NCBI GenBank assembly: GCA_003138815.1
Contig: PLHD01000061.1
Coordinates: 1-43,688, forward strand
DNA: 43,688 bases
Direction: 5' to 3'
From: Acidimicrobiaceae bacterium
Lineage (GTDB): Bacteria > Actinomycetota > Acidimicrobiia > Acidimicrobiales > RAAP-2
Shown: piece by piece, positions 1,753 through 9,244 of the stretch
Layout of the letters: every line of letters starts with the position of its first letter
Numbering within the stretch: the first letter of the stretch is position 1
Program-made: the position numbers and the translations under genes
The notes under the pieces: generated by a model
What the model was told of the DNA's origin: nothing
Databases searched by the model: none
Seen by the model: the letters and a program-made list of their open reading frames with translations, nothing else

Positions 1753-4644
1753 CTACTTCTTGCCCAATGCGTTCTGAGCCAACTGCAGCTGCTTGTTCAT
1801 GGCGTTCACGTCGCTCTGATAATTGCCGAGGTTACCGGCCTGCAGCGCGGCCTGGGCGGCCGTGTAGTCGTCGGCGGCCTGCTTCAGGTACGCCTGCGCC
1901 GTCTGTCCGGACTTGGTCGAAGGTGGAGTGGTCGGCGTGCTCGACGATGGGCCCACGGTGATGTTCGCCCCCAGCACGTCCGAGAGTGCCCCGGCGAGCG
2001 TCGGTTCGATGCCCACGTCCTGGTTGAAGACCGCGATGACGTATTTCAACTGCGGCAGCGAGTTCGACGAACTCGTCACGTACAGCGGACGGATGTAGAG
2101 CACGCTCTGGTCCAGCGGCACCATCAGGTTGTTGCCGAGCAGCACGCTCGAGCCGTGCTGGTCGAGAGGCGTGATGATCGAGCTCACCTGCGAGGCCTGC
2201 TCGATCTCCGAGTCGGCCTGCACCGGACCGGTGACCGACGTGCCTCGGGGGGTCACGTAGACGTCGAGCTGGCCGTAGTTGTCGGGATTGCTCGTCGCAA
2301 CCAGGAACGCGGTCAGCCCCTGGACCGTGGCCGAGTTGCCTTGGGGCACGTAGGCGATGGATTCGAGCAGTTGCTGGGTCTTCGTGCCCGGCAGTGCGCC
2401 GACCTGGAACAGCGGGCTCATCGGAGTGAGCGACGTCGAGACGATGTTGCCGGCGGCGTTGGTCTTCACGCTCTGGGCCAGCGTCTGGTCGGGGGTGCCG
2501 GCGCCGGTCGTGGGCGAGATCTGCCACTGGTCCGACGCCGAGTAGAACGAACTCGGCGAGGTGATGTGATAGCGGCCGAGGGTCGCGGCCTGCACGGTGA
2601 ACAGGTCGGTCGGGTAACGAAGATGCGTCTGGATCGCCGCGGGCATCTGGCTCATTGGCAGGAACATCTTGGGGAAGGCCGCGCTGTAGGCCCGCAGTAT
2701 CGGATCGTTGGGGTCGGCCGCGTAGAACTTCATCACACCCGAGTAGGCGTTGATGACGACCTTGACCGAGTTGCGCACGTAGTTGGCACTGCTCGGGATG
2801 CCGCCGGTGCCAATGTTGAGGTTGGACACGGCCTCGCTGTAGGGATACTGGCTGGTAGTGGTGTAGCCATCGAGCACGTACTGCACCTCGCCGTTGGCGA
2901 TCACCGCGTAGGGCTGGGAGTCGAACGACAGGAACGGCGCGGCCTTCTGGGCCATCTGCTTCACGTCGCGCACGAAGAGCACGCGACTCTTGGGCGTGAT
3001 CTGGTTGGAGATCAGGAAGTTGAAGTCGCCCAGGCGAAGCGCGATCGCCATGCGGCTGAAGAGTCCCCCGACCGCGATGCCGCCGGTGCTGGCGTAGTGC
3101 GTCTCGACCGGCTGGCCGGCGTTGGCGCCCGAGTTGACCTGGTAGTCGAGTTCGGACTGCTTGGTGTTGGCGACGACCCAGCCGGGGTCGTTGATGCCGA
3201 AGTAGATGTCGGGCTGGGTGAGCGTCGGAAGTCCCTCGGTCGACACCGGCGGCACGTTCGCCACAGCGAACACTGGATTACCGGTGTTGGTGACCTCGGT
3301 GTTCGCCGCGATCACCGCCGCGCCGATGCCATGGGTGTACTGCAGATGGGTGTTGACCCAGCTGGGCGAGGGCAGATTCGCCGAATTGAGCTGGCGGGCG
3401 CCGATCAGCACCGGCGTCAGCTTGCCGTTGATCAAGTAGCGGTCGACCGAGAGCGTCGTGAAGTTGTAGTAGGAGCGGATCGATTGGCGACGGATCGTCG
3501 TGGTCAGGGCGATCTGGCTGGCCGGGTCCCAGAGGCGGATGTTGGCCAGCGTGGCCGTGTCGGTCTTGATCTGGGCGTCGGTGATCGTCGAGGACCCGGC
3601 GAAGTTGTTGTAAGTCACCTTGTCGATGTTGTAGGCGGCGCGGGTGGCAGTGATGTTGCGCGATATGTACGGCGTCTCCAGCGATGCCTGCGCGGGGCTG
3701 ACCTTCAGCGCCTGGAGGATCGTCGGGTAGAGCACGCCGATGACGAGGGCGACGAAGACCCAGAGCCCCACCGCGACCGCCGGCAGCGACCAGCCGCGCG
3801 AGCGTACGTTGGCGAGCAAGATCACGGCCGCGGCCAGCGAAAGGTAGAAGAGGATCGTCATCGCCGGCATTCGAGCGTGCACGTCGGTGTAGCCCGCGCC
3901 CTGAACGTACCCGTTACCCGAATTCACGAGCTCCCACTTGGCGATCACGTACCCGGCCGCCTTCATCAGGGCAATCCCGGCACCGATGACCGACAGGTGC
4001 GCCTTGACGCGCGGCGAGACCCTGGGGCTCGTCCGGGTGGCACGGATGCCGCCGTTCAGGTAGTGGAAGCCGGTCGTCACGATCAGCACCACGAACAGCG
4101 ACACCAAGAGCCAGGTCACGATGAACGAGACGAAGGGCAGCGTCATGATGTAGAAGCTGAGGTCCTTGTGGAAGAGGGAGTCCTTGACGTGGAAGGGGAC
4201 GCTGTGGGCGAAGAGCAGGTAGTTGTTCCACTGGCTCGTCGCGTTGAAGCCGGCGATGAGGGCCATGACGAAGGCAATCGCGGCGTAGATCCGCCCGGCG
4301 CGCGGCCGGACCACCGTCTGGAACCGCCGAACCACTTCGTCCTCGGGGTCAAAGGACAGGTCGCGCGCGCCGAACGTATTGGTGAGCAGGAGGTTTCCCC
4401 ACATGAGGAAGAAGAAGATGGCGCCGAAGACCACCGCCAGGCCGACCTTGATGAAGAGCAGCGACGAGAACACGTTGCCCAGGCCGACGGCCGAGAACCA
4501 CATCTGATCGGTCCACAGCACCGCCAGGCTGTGCAGCGACAGGAACCCGATGAGGACGACGAAGATCACCAAACCAACCCAGAAGCGTCGAGAAAGTCGC
4601 CCTAGTCGACGGGGACGGGACGGCACATCAGTTGGGCTACGCAC
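1753..4644 (-). CDS. UPF0182 family integral membrane protein
   Basis: A 963-residue protein matching the UPF0182 (COG1615) family of large actinobacterial membrane proteins in length and layout. The N-terminal third has about seven hydrophobic helices, beginning FWVGLVIFVVLIGFLSLHSL near residue 21. A long mainly extracytoplasmic region follows, with family blocks such as YFGINDPGWVVANT. The C-terminus is a Ser/Thr/Pro linker and an Ala/Gln-rich helix ending QNALGKK. The function of the family is unknown. The GTG at 4644 is the first start, with no strong ribosome site, and a GTG six codons further in is possible. It is the last of three close minus-strand genes after the protease and the DivIVA-like protein, starting 21 bases past the latter's stop, so the three are probably co-transcribed. 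Confidence 0.9.
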   Translation of the reverse strand: MRSPTDVPSRPRRLGRLSRRFWVGLVIFVVLIGFLSLHSLAVLWTDQMWFSAVGLGNVFSSLLFIKVGLAVVFGAIFFFLMWGNLLLTNTFGARDLSFDPEDEVVRRFQTVVRPRAGRIYAAIAFVMALIAGFNATSQWNNYLLFAHSVPFHVKDSLFHKDLSFYIMTLPFVSFIVTWLLVSLFVVLIVTTGFHYLNGGIRATRTSPRVSPRVKAHLSVIGAGIALMKAAGYVIAKWELVNSGNGYVQGAGYTDVHARMPAMTILFYLSLAAAVILLANVRSRGWSLPAVAVGLWVFVALVIGVLYPTILQALKVSPAQASLETPYISRNITATRAAYNIDKVTYNNFAGSSTITDAQIKTDTATLANIRLWDPASQIALTTTIRRQSIRSYYNFTTLSVDRYLINGKLTPVLIGARQLNSANLPSPSWVNTHLQYTHGIGAAVIAANTEVTNTGNPVFAVANVPPVSTEGLPTLTQPDIYFGINDPGWVVANTKQSELDYQVNSGANAGQPVETHYASTGGIAVGGLFSRMAIALRLGDFNFLISNQITPKSRVLFVRDVKQMAQKAAPFLSFDSQPYAVIANGEVQYVLDGYTTTSQYPYSEAVSNLNIGTGGIPSSANYVRNSVKVVINAYSGVMKFYAADPNDPILRAYSAAFPKMFLPMSQMPAAIQTHLRYPTDLFTVQAATLGRYHITSPSSFYSASDQWQISPTTGAGTPDQTLAQSVKTNAAGNIVSTSLTPMSPLFQVGALPGTKTQQLLESIAYVPQGNSATVQGLTAFLVATSNPDNYGQLDVYVTPRGTSVTGPVQADSEIEQASQVSSIITPLDQHGSSVLLGNNLMVPLDQSVLYIRPLYVTSSSNSLPQLKYVIAVFNQDVGIEPTLAGALSDVLGANITVGPSSSTPTTPPSTKSGQTAQAYLKQAADDYTAAQAALQAGNLGNYQSDVNAMNKQLQLAQNALGKK

Positions 4645-4665: not shown

Positions 4666-6339
4666 CTAGACAGGCACCACCGTGCAGGCGCAGCCGGCGT
4701 GCAGCGGAGGATACGCGGAGCCGCTCGGGAAGCCCTGTCCGGCCACCCGATCGCCAGCGCCGGCGTCGAGCGCGCAGGCGTCGCACGGCGCGTCGTTGGG
4801 CGCCGCGAAGAAGCGCACCGAGCGGCCGTCGGATGCCGCGAGTACGCCCACGTGGAAGGCCCGTCGAGCGGCATCGGTGCAGAGCCTTTCGACGCGCGCA
4901 CCGCGCCACTCCTTGTAGGCGGAGTTTGCCCTCTCCGGCCCGTCGCCGCTGCCGTCGGCCAAGATTCGCTTACGCAGGGCCAGCACGATCGTCACCGCCA
5001 GATCGGCTGAACAGTCGTTCAACGCGCTCATGTCGACGATGCTGGCATTGGCGCCCGCCTCGTCCAGGGCGAACTGCACGCCGGCGTTGGCGGCCTGGCT
5101 TAAGGCATCGAGAGCCGCTTCGGCGTAGCGCGCGCGCTGAGCGTGCTCGTCCTCAAGTTCGGTGGTGATCATCGCCGTCACGTCGCGCAGTCGCTCGAGC
5201 ATGATGTTCTGGTCGTCCTGGAGCGCACGCTTCACCTTGCGGGTCAACGCCGCGAGCGGACCCTCGAGCGCGCGGTCGCGGCGCTCGAACAGTTCACCGA
5301 CCGGGGTGGCCAGCTTGGTCGGCGCAGCGACCTTGCGCGGGGCTGCGGCGGTCGCGCCGCGCTCTTCCAGGGTGGCCTTGCGCAGGCGGGCGAATATCTC
5401 ATTGACCACGTCGGTTCCCGACGAGTCGTCTTCCAGCAGCAGGGGTTCGGCGATGGCGACCGGCTTGGTCGCCTTGCGCGCCTTGGGCTTGATCGCTTCG
5501 GACGTGTCGGGGGTCGGCTCGAGCGTGGTTTCGGGCACTTCTCGAAGCGGCGTGCCGGCGAGGAGCTCCTCCTCGGTGGGCTCGGGCGTCGCAGGTCGCA
5601 TCCTCAGCGCCTCCAGGGCCGCCGCCCGCGCCACCTCGTCGGAGTTGTTGATGCCCGCGAGGACCTCCTCGACCTGATCGCTCAGCGAACTCACGTACGT
5701 CGCCAGCGAGTCTCGCGCCGCGCGTAGCTGGTCGATCTGCATGTGCAGGGCCTTGCGCTTCACGGCCAGGTCGTTCAGGACAGCCTTTCTCGCTTCGTTG
5801 GACTGCTCGAGAATCGCCCGTCCCTGCTCGCGCGCGTTGTCGACGAGCGCTTCCCCGTTCACCTTGGCCGAGTCGATGAGTCGCTCGGCCGCCAGACGGG
5901 CGTCGTGGTCGATCTGGACCGCCGTCGTCTCGGCCTCGGTGATGATCGCGGTGGCCCGCTCCTGGGCTTCGATGAGGTGCGAGGCGGCACGCTGCTGGCT
6001 CTCGGAGAAGAGCTGGGCGCTGCGCTCCTGGGCCTCGGCCGTGACGCGGCCGGCCTCTTCGTGGGCGGAGCGCAGGATCGCCGCGCTCTGGGTGCCCAGA
6101 GCGTTGGTCAGGGTGGCCTCGTCGAAGGTGGGATTGGCCGCCCGGCGCAGGGCCTCGGAGAGCTGATCCTGCGTTTCTCGCAGTCGGGACTCCAGATGGC
6201 CCATTTCCCTGGCGACCGATTCGAGGTGGAGACGTACCTCTTGGGGGTCCAGGCCGCCCTTTCGCACCGTCGTGAAGTTCGCCCGGGCTACCTCGGTCGA
6301 CGCCTGGCGCGTGGCGGAGACAATTCGGCGTTCGTCCAT
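4666..6339 (-). CDS. DivIVA-like coiled-coil protein with phage Mu F-like cysteine tail
   Basis: A 557-residue soluble protein in three parts. Residues 18-60 look like a DivIVA domain (FTTVRKGGLDPQEVRLHLES), which in Wag31/GpsB-type proteins targets curved membrane or scaffolds envelope growth. Residues 60-240 are a long Ala/Glu/Gln/Arg coiled coil, and 250-340 a charged Pro/Lys-rich linker. From about 345 it is helical and ends in a compact Cys/His module: C519-x2-C522, then PPLH547-x2-C550-x-C552. This tail resembles the C-terminus of phage Mu F / SPP1 gp7-like minor head proteins and may bind zinc; that is pattern recognition, not a search result. The ATG at 6339 has AAGGA directly against it, an unusually tight ribosome site. 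It lies between the PDZ/Lon protease gene (38-bp gap) and the UPF0182 gene. A role in envelope growth is inferred; the role of the tail is unknown. Confidence 0.72.
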   Translation of the reverse strand: MDERRIVSATRQASTEVARANFTTVRKGGLDPQEVRLHLESVAREMGHLESRLRETQDQLSEALRRAANPTFDEATLTNALGTQSAAILRSAHEEAGRVTAEAQERSAQLFSESQQRAASHLIEAQERATAIITEAETTAVQIDHDARLAAERLIDSAKVNGEALVDNAREQGRAILEQSNEARKAVLNDLAVKRKALHMQIDQLRAARDSLATYVSSLSDQVEEVLAGINNSDEVARAAALEALRMRPATPEPTEEELLAGTPLREVPETTLEPTPDTSEAIKPKARKATKPVAIAEPLLLEDDSSGTDVVNEIFARLRKATLEERGATAAAPRKVAAPTKLATPVGELFERRDRALEGPLAALTRKVKRALQDDQNIMLERLRDVTAMITTELEDEHAQRARYAEAALDALSQAANAGVQFALDEAGANASIVDMSALNDCSADLAVTIVLALRKRILADGSGDGPERANSAYKEWRGARVERLCTDAARRAFHVGVLAASDGRSVRFFAAPNDAPCDACALDAGAGDRVAGQGFPSGSAYPPLHAGCACTVVPV

Positions 6340-6377: not shown

Positions 6378-7460
6378 TTACCTCGGCTTCGCGATGGCCA
6401 CGGGCGCGGCCCCGCCCATATTTCGCAGGTCGCGCAGGACCTGGCGCAGGCTCGCCACGCCGATGATCCGAAGTCCCGGCTCTTGGGCGCTCTTTGCGTC
6501 GGCGACGTTCGCCTCGGGCACGAAGAAGACTTTCGCGCCGGCGTTCACCACGGCCACGGCCTTCTCGGCGACGCCGCCCACCGCCCCGACCGCACCATTC
6601 GGCGAAATTGTGCCCGTCGCGGCGATCGTGCGATGCCCGGTGATCGAACCGCGGCTCAACTCGTCAATCAGCGTCAAGGTCATGGCGAGGCCCGCCGACG
6701 GCCCTCCGATGTTGCTGGTGTTGATCGAGACCGTGGCGGGCAGCCTGTAACTGAAGCCATCTTCGAGGGAGACCCCGATCCACGACCGGTTGACTCCCTT
6801 CACGCCGGCGCAGCCGGACGCTCCAATCCCGCTCGGAGCCGAGCCGGTGCTCAGGGCGATCGTCGTGGAGCGGCCCCACGTGATGACGCCGGTGGGGCTC
6901 ACGTGGGCGCGCTTGACGCCAAGGCTTACCGAGGTGTCGGGCCCGAGGGGGTGGAGCAGGGCGAAGAGCGAGCACCTGGAGTCGACGGGCGTGCCGTTGA
7001 CGGCGACGATCTCGTCAGCGACCGCCAGCCCGGCCTTACGAGCCGGTGACGGAGCCACGACGCCGGTAACCACCGCACCGGTGGGCGTGGCGGGGACCTT
7101 CCAGCCGAGCGCGCTGAAGGCGGCGACTTCCGCGGCCTGCTTGGAGTCGTTCATCTCGAGGAAGCCCTGGGGGAGCAGCTCGTCTCCGGGAACGCCCGGC
7201 TCGACGAGGTCGCCCGCCGGCACGAACTCGACGTGCGACTGGAACTCCATGGTGAGGCGCTGCCAGGCTGACAGCGAGGTCAGGTAGACGTCAGTCAGCA
7301 TGATCTTGTCGGTGTGTGGATTGGTCGCCAGTCCCTGGATCCTCACGAGCGGCGCCACGTACGTGGCGTTGCCCGGGGTGAGCGCGTACTCCGAGATGTT
7401 CCAGGCCCGCAAGCCCAGGACGGCGCACAGCACAACGACCAGAGCCATTAGCAGGGTCAC
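6378..7460 (-). CDS. Membrane-anchored PDZ / Lon-type (S16) protease
   Basis: A 360-residue protein of the YlbL-like PDZ-Lon family. An N-terminal transmembrane helix (residues 4-19) anchors an extracytoplasmic part. A PDZ domain spans about 125-205 (GVVAPSPARKAGLAVADEIV). The C-terminal S16 domain carries Ser255 in NIGGPSAGLAM and Lys300 in GGVAEKAVAV, the Ser-Lys catalytic dyad of Lon. There is no AAA domain, as usual for this family. The chosen start is a GTG. Codons for SRRRRS precede it in frame without an obvious start, so the natural N-terminus may be slightly longer and more basic. It diverges from the HEAT-repeat gene 39 bases away and leads the DivIVA-like and UPF0182 genes. In Bacillus, YlbL-type proteases act on cell-division inhibitors; a similar envelope quality-control role is inferred. 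Confidence 0.88.
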   Translation of the reverse strand: MTLLMALVVVLCAVLGLRAWNISEYALTPGNATYVAPLVRIQGLATNPHTDKIMLTDVYLTSLSAWQRLTMEFQSHVEFVPAGDLVEPGVPGDELLPQGFLEMNDSKQAAEVAAFSALGWKVPATPTGAVVTGVVAPSPARKAGLAVADEIVAVNGTPVDSRCSLFALLHPLGPDTSVSLGVKRAHVSPTGVITWGRSTTIALSTGSAPSGIGASGCAGVKGVNRSWIGVSLEDGFSYRLPATVSINTSNIGGPSAGLAMTLTLIDELSRGSITGHRTIAATGTISPNGAVGAVGGVAEKAVAVVNAGAKVFFVPEANVADAKSAQEPGLRIIGVASLRQVLRDLRNMGGAAPVAIAKPR

Positions 7461-8135: not shown

Positions 8136-9140
8136 CTAGCGGTCCGCGTTTCGAAAGAGGGCGTGCAGCGCGGACATCTCCTCGAGGCACAGCTGCAGCC
8201 CCTTGATGATCACGAGATCGGGCTGGTCGGCGACGTGGACCTCGACGCCGGTGCCGGTGGCGATGAGTTCGGCGAAGTCGTTCAGCAGCGCGTGGCCGCC
8301 CACCAGGGTGAGTCCTCCCGAACTTACGTCCTGGGAAAGGTCCGGCGGTGCGTCGCCCAGACAGTCCTGGACCATCTTGAGCGTCGACATCAAGACGTCG
8401 CCGAGAGCCGCGTTGACAAGGTCCGCACCGACCTCGACCTCGACCAGGTCTCCCCGATCGACCCGGCGAGCCGTCACCACCTCCGAAGCGTCGCGCGTGC
8501 GGCCCAGTGCCGAAGCCAGCGTGCACTTGAGCATCTCGGCCACGGCGGGTGAGACGACGACGCCGTGGCGCTGGCGCAGCAGGGACGCGACGGCGCTGTC
8601 GAGGTCGTTGCCCCCCTGGCGGCGGCCGCTGCCGGTGACGATGCCGCCCAACGAGATCAGCGCCGCTTCCGACGCGCCCGCACCCAGGATCGTGACGGCC
8701 GAGCCCACCGGATCCTGCACCGGCAGCCCCAGCCCGATGGCCGCGGCGATGGGCGCTTCGATCAGGCTCACTTCTCGGGCGCCGGCCTGGATGGCCGCTT
8801 GGCGAAGGGCCCGGCGCTCGATTGGGGTGGCCAGCGAAGGAACGCTCATCACGACGCGGGCCCGGCTCAGTTTCGAGACCCCGGCCCGGTCGAACAGCCC
8901 CGCGATGAGCCGCGCCGTGACGTCGAAGTCCACCGTCGTGCCCTGGGCGAATGGGCGAAAGACCAGCACGTGGCGCGAAGTTCGCCCCACGGAGTCCAGG
9001 GCCCCGTAGCCGACCTCGACGACGTCGCCGGAGTTGGTGTCGATAGCGACCATCGTCGGCTCGTCGAAGACGATCCCGCGCTCGGCCGTGGCCAATCGGG
9101 TGAACGAGGTGCCTATATCGAGTGCGACGTCGGTGGCCAT
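8136..9140 (-). CDS. MreB-like actin homologue with altered nucleotide motif
   Basis: A 334-residue actin/Hsp70-fold protein related to MreB, which polymerises under the membrane to guide cell-wall synthesis. The phosphate-1 loop (DIGTSFTRL, residues 8-16), connecting segment (EAPIAAAIGLGL, 128-139) and adenosine motif (LTLVGGHALL, near 288) are recognisable. The phosphate-2 loop reads ILGAGASEAALISLGGI (151-167) where MreB proteins have DIGGGTTEVAVISLGGI, so the Asp and one Gly are replaced. The ATG at 9140 fits the family N-terminus (MATDVALDIGT); a frame open to 9212 adds no family-like residues. It is not next to mreC/mreD or rodA, so a classical rod-shape operon is absent. It may be a divergent paralogue with weak or no ATP turnover. 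Confidence 0.75.
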   Translation of the reverse strand: MATDVALDIGTSFTRLATAERGIVFDEPTMVAIDTNSGDVVEVGYGALDSVGRTSRHVLVFRPFAQGTTVDFDVTARLIAGLFDRAGVSKLSRARVVMSVPSLATPIERRALRQAAIQAGAREVSLIEAPIAAAIGLGLPVQDPVGSAVTILGAGASEAALISLGGIVTGSGRRQGGNDLDSAVASLLRQRHGVVVSPAVAEMLKCTLASALGRTRDASEVVTARRVDRGDLVEVEVGADLVNAALGDVLMSTLKMVQDCLGDAPPDLSQDVSSGGLTLVGGHALLNDFAELIATGTGVEVHVADQPDLVIIKGLQLCLEEMSALHALFRNADR

Positions 9141-9244
9141 GGAGACCAATGCTACGTCGGCCCTACTGACGCCAGCCTCAGGGCCGAAGCGTCCCGGAAT
9201 GGCAATCGGCACGCGGCGCGATGCGCAGCGCGGATTCGCCCCCT

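Follow-up and report, generated by a model that had tools for sequence, protein, structure and literature searches.

A DivIVA-type coiled-coil protein with a C-terminal domain related to phage Mu F-like minor head proteins, encoded beside a UPF0182 gene in Acidimicrobiales

The fusion gene and its neighbours

The stretch of DNA analysed (hereafter the window) is a contig of 43,688 nucleotides from an Acidimicrobiaceae bacterium (PLHD01000061.1, assembly GCA_003138815.1). A gene located at positions 4666..6339 on the minus strand (stop codon 4666-4668) is predicted to encode a protein of 557 amino acids and was found as a single copy in the genome. The original prediction, made from the letters of the sequence, had described this frame as a DivIVA-type N-terminus followed by a long coiled coil and a C-terminal Cys-His module, and this architecture was confirmed by calculation, with exact coordinates, on the minus strand. 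The head (residues 1-46; 6202..6339) is matched by Pfam DivIVA from residue 16 and by TIGR03544 over residues 16-46. It is followed by a coiled coil resembling the middle of Wag31 (residues ~47-235; 5635..6201; NCBIfam Wag31 over residues 49-209, E 1.3e-10), by a linker of low conservation which differs in length between relatives (residues ~236-344; 5308..5634), and by the C-terminal domain, or tail (residues ~345-557; 4669..5307), to which a MuF fold was assigned from profile-profile comparison, PHROGs and the predicted fold. The first helix of the tail carries the signature KRxLQDDQNxxLxxLR (residues 370-385; 5185..5232), and a Cys-His knuckle, C519-x2-C522 ... H547-x2-C550-x-C552 (4684..4785), forms a putative zinc site; C519, C522, PPLH (with H547), C550 and C552 were all where the original prediction had placed them, and the protein terminates five residues past C552. 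All of these features lie on the minus strand. No transmembrane segment was detected in the fusion protein by simple hydropathy, nor any toxin family in Pfam at E<=1.

When the window protein was searched alone it scored 26.7 bits against Pfam DivIVA (cut-off 28) and 15.9 bits against TIGR03544 (cut-off 22), and in a whole-genome scan its Pfam DivIVA score was 30.9 bits. The head motif is RRGFDPxEVR in the family consensus and RKGGLDPQEVR in the window. The family is nevertheless DivIVA-type despite this divergence, since both profiles match all 14 aligned full-length proteins, the window protein included, at E<=0.01. Another DivIVA is encoded elsewhere in the genome, beside frames which by eye are FtsZ-like, YggS-like and SepF-like. 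Two proteins of family f99 (L207 4220-5935 and L225 5495-7000) were observed to have a coiled coil (by eye), the tail and a UPF0182 neighbour, with no detectable DivIVA head.

The next gene downstream (1753..4644, minus strand) encodes a UPF0182 membrane protein (Pfam UPF0182, E 2.9e-237), and its GTG start lies 21 bp beyond the stop codon of the fusion gene. Upstream lies a gene for a Lon-PDZ (SepM/YlbL-like) protease (6378..7460, minus strand; assigned with Pfam and NCBIfam), and the same conserved cluster contains a gene for a divergent MreB-like protein (8136..9212, minus strand; Pfam MreB_Mbl, E 4.9e-77). Across 100 loci UPF0182 was found on the same strand directly after the fusion gene in 99, with a median gap of 25 bp and a largest gap of 332 bp; at the one exception (L041) no UPF0182 was found and the contig ends soon after. 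This linkage is tighter than that of Lon-PDZ, which was present in 74 of the 89 loci with at least 1.5 kb of upstream sequence (nine of the 15 without it are distant loci). Within their limited flanks, 55 of the 100 loci also contain the divergent MreB-like gene. Pfam was also run on ten neighbour proteins from distant loci, giving a response regulator, two histidine kinases, a LuxR-type regulator and an aldolase, with five unmatched. UPF0182 itself is far commoner than the fusion (251 of 392 sampled phylum genomes), and in six lineages without the fusion (L233, L238-L242) Lon-PDZ lies before or near it. A stronger MreB is encoded on another contig of the genome (492 bits, compared with 259 for the window protein). 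Given this MreB and the separate DivIVA noted above, two cytoskeletal families are each represented in the window by a second copy, at a short distance from one another.

Relationship of the tail to phage head proteins

The original prediction had assigned the tail to the phage Mu F/SPP1 gp7 type and had named profile comparison as the way to check this. A scan of viral contigs with the tail alignment gave 62 loci, and the same scan with the whole window protein as query gave no relative. The patterns by which the 62 loci were chosen include the knuckle, so that these loci are no independent test of it, and the rest of the domain was therefore also compared alone. Alignment of 79 bacterial tails to 32 phage MuF proteins (thinned from 46 sequences with enough upstream sequence) using hhalign gave an E value of 6e-26 over 199 columns, and an E value of 3.6e-7 once the Cys-His knuckle had been removed. 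The controls failed, with values of 0.73 for the coiled coil of the family itself and 0.075 for the reversed helical part. The viral relatives are genuine phage MuF proteins, as the Pfam Phage_Mu_F cut-off was passed by all ten tested, one of which lies behind a portal domain, and no ORF listed from the viral loci bears a DivIVA half.

Among the PHROGs families, phrog_2662 (portal protein) matched 23 of 24 tails (best E 8e-14), a minor-head family 21 and a head-morphogenesis family 19. The window tail alone matched phrog_2662 at 3.9e-5, over profile positions 594-707 of 717, and the full-length window protein matched only a head-morphogenesis family, at 0.038. Curated profiles searched with single sequences gave weak matches. 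TIGR01641 (SPP1 gp7) matched six of 14 full-length proteins (best E 4e-4; the score displayed for one protein was 18.7 bits, below the cut-off of 39.65), Pfam Phage_Mu_F (PF04233) matched 14 of 24 tails at E<=1 (best 0.0043), and the window tail alone matched nothing in Pfam at E<=1, Phage_Mu_F included. A plain HMM (HMMER) of the helical part found only two phage ORFs at E<=0.01, which makes the similarity to phage proteins a remote one. A tblastn search with the L019 tail against isolated phages and plasmids returned nothing at E<=0.01. Taken together, the profile comparisons make the tail a genuine, if distant, relative of phage MuF/SPP1 gp7-like domains, fused here to a DivIVA-family coiled coil. 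The bacterial tails are marked by their own signature, in which K370, R371, D375, Q377 and N378 were invariant in 24 of 24 tails picked by overall similarity. The signature is rare among the phage relatives, a D[DE]xN-type motif being found upstream of the knuckle in only five of 63 phage ORFs.

The fold of the tail was predicted with AlphaFold from 79 sequences (L067 and L072 were excluded from the alignment, their domain match having begun late), giving a model with a pLDDT of 93.5 and a pTM of 0.91. The model consists of helices at 8-47, 59-89, 98-122 and 128-163, followed by a small knuckle with short strands. A Foldseek search of the tail had also been put forward as a check, and when it was run with this model against BFVD it found phage head-morphogenesis proteins: there were 56 matches at E<=1e-3, and among the 50 listed 29 were named, 28 of them as head or capsid morphogenesis, minor capsid, capsid maturation or portal proteins (TM by query 0.34 to 0.69 among the matches listed). 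Against the PDB, Foldseek gave no match at E<=1e-3, and no experimental MuF structure surfaced; VIA-align returned helical bundles, the best at Z 8.4 with an rmsd of 6.0 across 154 residues. The Foldseek and VIA-align outcomes exclude nothing. In a profile search the chains listed were all ribosomal, designed or ZorA ones, at E 0.049 or higher.

Conservation of the five Cys and His residues was assessed in several sets of loci. The first 30 loci contained 28 tails (that of the window included), of which 25 hold CxxC..H..CxC and the other three (L021, L024 and L026) are clipped at the locus end, giving a full site in 25 of 25 complete near tails; the motif is therefore not due to chance. The full knuckle was also present in all 80 named-record loci (the best 80 of 306) and was invariant in 79 aligned tails. 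These loci had been fetched with patterns containing PPxHxGCxC and QDxQN, and accordingly test only the CxxC half.

In more distant relatives the site was found to vary. The full site was held by 20 of 30 loci from the phylum scan (the window's included), and the other ten keep the His and CxC and are without one Cys of the CxxC. In L131, L132, L133, L134, L135 and L140 a new Cys was observed just before the Trp of the preceding strand; where the second CxxC Cys is lost, this new residue resembles a compensating metal ligand. Among 22 loci drawn mostly from distant groups, 13 had the full site and five had four Cys with the His changed to D, G, N, E or R. The remaining four were without the full site, with L218 and L223 stopping ahead of the knuckle and L214 also having Arg for His, so that the His is replaced in six of 22 loci. 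Across the order, tail matches ended ahead of the knuckle in 12 of 121 genomes, possibly through gene decay or loss of the knuckle. Genomes with such ends include G106, G070, G087, G084 and G016, and five have a stop codon within the match. The expectation that the five residues would be conserved among orthologues was thus upheld in near relatives (25/25 complete tails) and weakened by more distant ones, where a CxxC Cys was missing (10/30) or the His replaced (6/22), and by the order-wide scan, where some matches fell short of the knuckle (12/121). The knuckle, probably a zinc site, appears to be a metal-type site under changing constraint and not an invariant one.

Distribution and origin of the fusion

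The phylogenetic spread of the fusion, another of the checks that had been suggested, was determined by scanning genome samples at several depths. When genomes sampled evenly from the order were scanned with the tail alignment, the tail was detected in 121 of 148 (97 of the 115 good ones), and the single window protein, used as query, gave 122 of 148 by either half. The tail was undetected in 27 of the 148, or about one genome in five or six, nearly complete genomes included. A sample of the phylum (396 genomes) gave 54 with the tail: all 30 listed genomes of the window's order, six of eight from the rest of its class (a sharper profile also picked up the remaining two, G191 and G435) and 18 from two other classes. 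Class-wide scans of those two classes showed a patchy presence, in eight of 24 and 15 of 66 genomes; the latter scan missed G483, which had been positive in the phylum sample.

Head and tail were found in one frame in 73 of the named-record loci (again the best 80 of 306, which by title are from Acidimicrobiia or unplaced actinobacteria, one being labelled Acidobacteriota). Of the other seven, three run into a contig end, and in four the head occupies a frame of its own upstream. Among 20 phylum-wide loci, 16 had head and tail in one frame, one was split, one was clipped and two were the f99 loci without a detectable head. Two loci of genus g193 were observed to be altered: L214 4489-5842 is split into two frames, and L244 5107-5769 is a decayed remnant in which no knuckle was seen, although UPF0182 is present. 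The fusion is dispensable, given that it is undetected in 27 of 148 genomes of the order and is patchy (15/66) and partly decayed in another class. Misassembly or chance fusion was rejected as an explanation of the locus, the fusion being present in many assemblies. A prophage remnant was likewise rejected on the basis of the conserved cellular context, the presence in 121 of 148 genomes and the adjacent UPF0182 in 99 of 100 loci.

A quick tree was calculated from 71 tails, 40 of them bacterial (including 21 of the 80 named-record tails). Bacterial and phage rows separated, except for one long-branched phage row. When the 40 bacterial rows were constrained as one clade, the log-likelihood was 8.6 better than that of the free quick tree (p-AU 0.66), and a single origin of the bacterial tails is therefore compatible with the tree and was not rejected by it. 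The only phage row to land next to the bacterial tails is L149 2-1534, from a viral contig, in which a MuF-like ending lies behind what by eye looks like a NUDIX-type domain. Transfer from phage to host is assumed as the direction because MuF is ubiquitous in phages. The pairing is kept in most sampled members of the order, nearly always beside a UPF0182 gene, and it therefore seems that a virus part has been turned into ordinary cell machinery.

Possible role and comparison with known systems

We know of no established function for UPF0182, to which the fusion gene is so closely linked. A pLDDT of 90 was obtained for the UPF0182 model, which has seven long helices at its N-terminus and a sizeable soluble part that is presumably outside the cell. 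At its C-terminus a helical hairpin (residues 910-960) is predicted after a Ser/Thr/Pro-rich linker. Searched against the PDB, the model gave no Foldseek match at E<=1e-3 and no VIA-align match above Z 7.5, and a profile search gave one match, at 0.01. We take Rv3193c of M. tuberculosis, DIP0733 of C. diphtheriae and cg0896 of C. glutamicum to be members of UPF0182. The last two are homologues, described as seven-helix proteins in one study (PMC6123952). Another lists Rv3193c, also with seven helices, among 14 membrane-protein genes under-represented in Tn-seq in the absence of the division protein Rv0954, and six of those 14 are division genes (PMC8093794). This link offers independent support for a role in the envelope or in division.

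The original prediction had suggested that the neighbouring Lon-type protease could process the fusion protein. In the Lon-PDZ protein, which has a GPSAG motif, a single hydrophobic segment at the N-terminus precedes the PDZ and Lon domains, and SepM/YlbL-type proteases of such arrangement face outward. The neighbour probably faces outward too and, as relatives of its type do so, should not meet a cytoplasmic coiled coil. Processing is thus unlikely and was rejected on topology; the fusion protein has no transmembrane segment by hydropathy, and its tighter linkage is to UPF0182. The Lon part of 6378-7460 also gave a weak match to the PADLOC CARF-Lon model (E 6.3e-5), most likely via the shared Lon domain.

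Members of the DivIVA family assemble where the membrane is negatively curved, and they recruit partner proteins. For the location, binding partner, metal and function of the fusion protein, we infer the following from its parts. As in the DivIVA family, the head and coiled coil would self-assemble and attach to the membrane from its inner side, at poles or septa. The C-terminal 210 residues would be a domesticated MuF domain, with a Cys-rich knuckle closing off its four long helices, and would most likely serve as the partner-binding end of the scaffold, much as the SPP1 protein docks on the portal; in that phage the portal protein gp6 binds gp7 strongly and carries it into the procapsid (PMC6316719). 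The tail would then hold or position an envelope complex containing the co-operonic UPF0182 protein, and, since the soluble part of UPF0182 is presumably outside, docking would use its short cytoplasmic loops. We offer this reading, of a second DivIVA-type scaffold whose domesticated phage docking tail binds an envelope partner, probably UPF0182 or its complex, tentatively and at somewhat less than an even chance. Linkage to UPF0182 does not prove binding. Only one UPF0182 column of 963, in the C-terminal hairpin, tracked the presence of the fusion (about one in three alignment rows was used, and L049 was excluded as incomplete); this was taken as nothing, and the absence of a residue pattern following the fusion lends no support to a dedicated binding site there and speaks against such an interface.

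The lack of a co-varying partner site in UPF0182 would suit a tail that is a mere structural cap, a folded terminus which the DivIVA coil requires for stability or spacing and for which the MuF fold happened to be at hand. The variable knuckle of distant groups and the absence of the gene from part of the order would fit as well. Such a cap is nonetheless improbable, as the five signature residues are invariant in 24 of 24 similarity-chosen tails and the tail is about as conserved as the DivIVA half (identity of 40% for the tail and 36% for the DivIVA half in L015, and of 34% and 39% in L019); these observations suggest a specific interaction of the tail. Alternatively, the tail, as a descendant of DNA-associated head proteins, might bind DNA and tether the scaffold to it, the protein then linking the chromosome to the membrane or pole. 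A 2003 paper, to judge from its title, describes an SPP1 DNA-binding protein that reaches the procapsid by way of the portal, and a basic KR pair occurs in 24 of 24 tails together with the Cys knuckle. The signature helix is, however, as acidic and polar (QDDQN) as it is basic, and the linkage is to an envelope membrane protein, which together leave a DNA tether a rather poor prospect.

It is very unlikely that the protein interferes with phages, a membrane-anchored host copy of MuF sequestering the portals of infecting phages or occupying their MuF site. The homology of the tail, the strength described for the SPP1 gp6-gp7 interaction (PMC6316719) and the non-universal presence in the order would allow this, but 121 of 148 genomes of the order carry the gene, it sits among cellular genes in a fixed cluster, and no PADLOC model matched the fusion protein at E<=0.01 (0 families). 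Convergence, with the tail an unrelated helical bundle that ends in a zinc knuckle, would agree with the two phage ORFs found by HMMER without the knuckle (E<=0.01) and the want of a PDB fold match at E<=1e-3, but is scarcely credible beside the HMM-HMM match of the helical part alone (3.6e-7, with failing controls) and the TM values (by query) of 0.6-0.69 reached with several phage MuF models.

The docking scaffold proposed here could belong to a broader scheme, which we regard as doubtful: that capture of a portal-docking domain from a phage happened a single time, deep in the phylum, that this domain became the working end of the second DivIVA scaffold, and that the scaffold, the diverged MreB and UPF0182 form an envelope-organising module not yet described, with a virion-assembly interface reused to dock a membrane machine. 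DivIVA proteins recruit factors to poles and septa, and most of the order keeps on one of them a tail that descends from a virus head-assembly protein or has a common ancestor with one. If the protein works as proposed, viral assembly parts became cell-organising parts, and the fusion would provide a concrete handle on UPF0182, a membrane protein of 251 of 392 sampled phylum genomes.

The author of the original prediction knew of no described protein with this pairing, and no description of a DivIVA-MuF protein was found in the open-access full texts searched, a scope outside which most subscription papers and bioRxiv preprints fall. With the DivIVA/Wag31 family the fusion protein shares the N-terminal DivIVA domain, the long coiled coil and the lack of a transmembrane segment (by hydropathy), and differs in its large folded C-terminal domain; the only added folded domain named in one survey of DivIVA-like proteins is a Ser/Thr kinase in one PolyDIV cluster (PMC9858780). 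With phage Mu F/SPP1 gp7-like minor head proteins (PF04233, TIGR01641, PHROGs 2841 and 4728) it shares the predicted fold of the tail and the CxxC...PPxH..CxC ending, whereas the fusion is cellular, places the domain behind a DivIVA coil and has its own QDDQN signature helix. Its gene lacks the portal or terminase neighbours of a phage context and is flanked by the Lon-PDZ and UPF0182 genes, within a conserved cluster of cellular type; in one survey 90% of 901 chromosomal muf genes lay inside prophages (PMC5576092). Phage portal-MuF fusions (phrog_2662), the best PHROGs match, likewise carry MuF as the C-terminal tail of a larger protein, but their N-terminal partner is a portal and that of the window protein is a DivIVA scaffold. 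Finally, MuF polymorphic toxins also place MuF in a multidomain protein; in these the toxin occupies a C-terminal extension of the MuF protein, according to the same survey (PMC5576092), whereas in the window protein MuF is itself the last domain.
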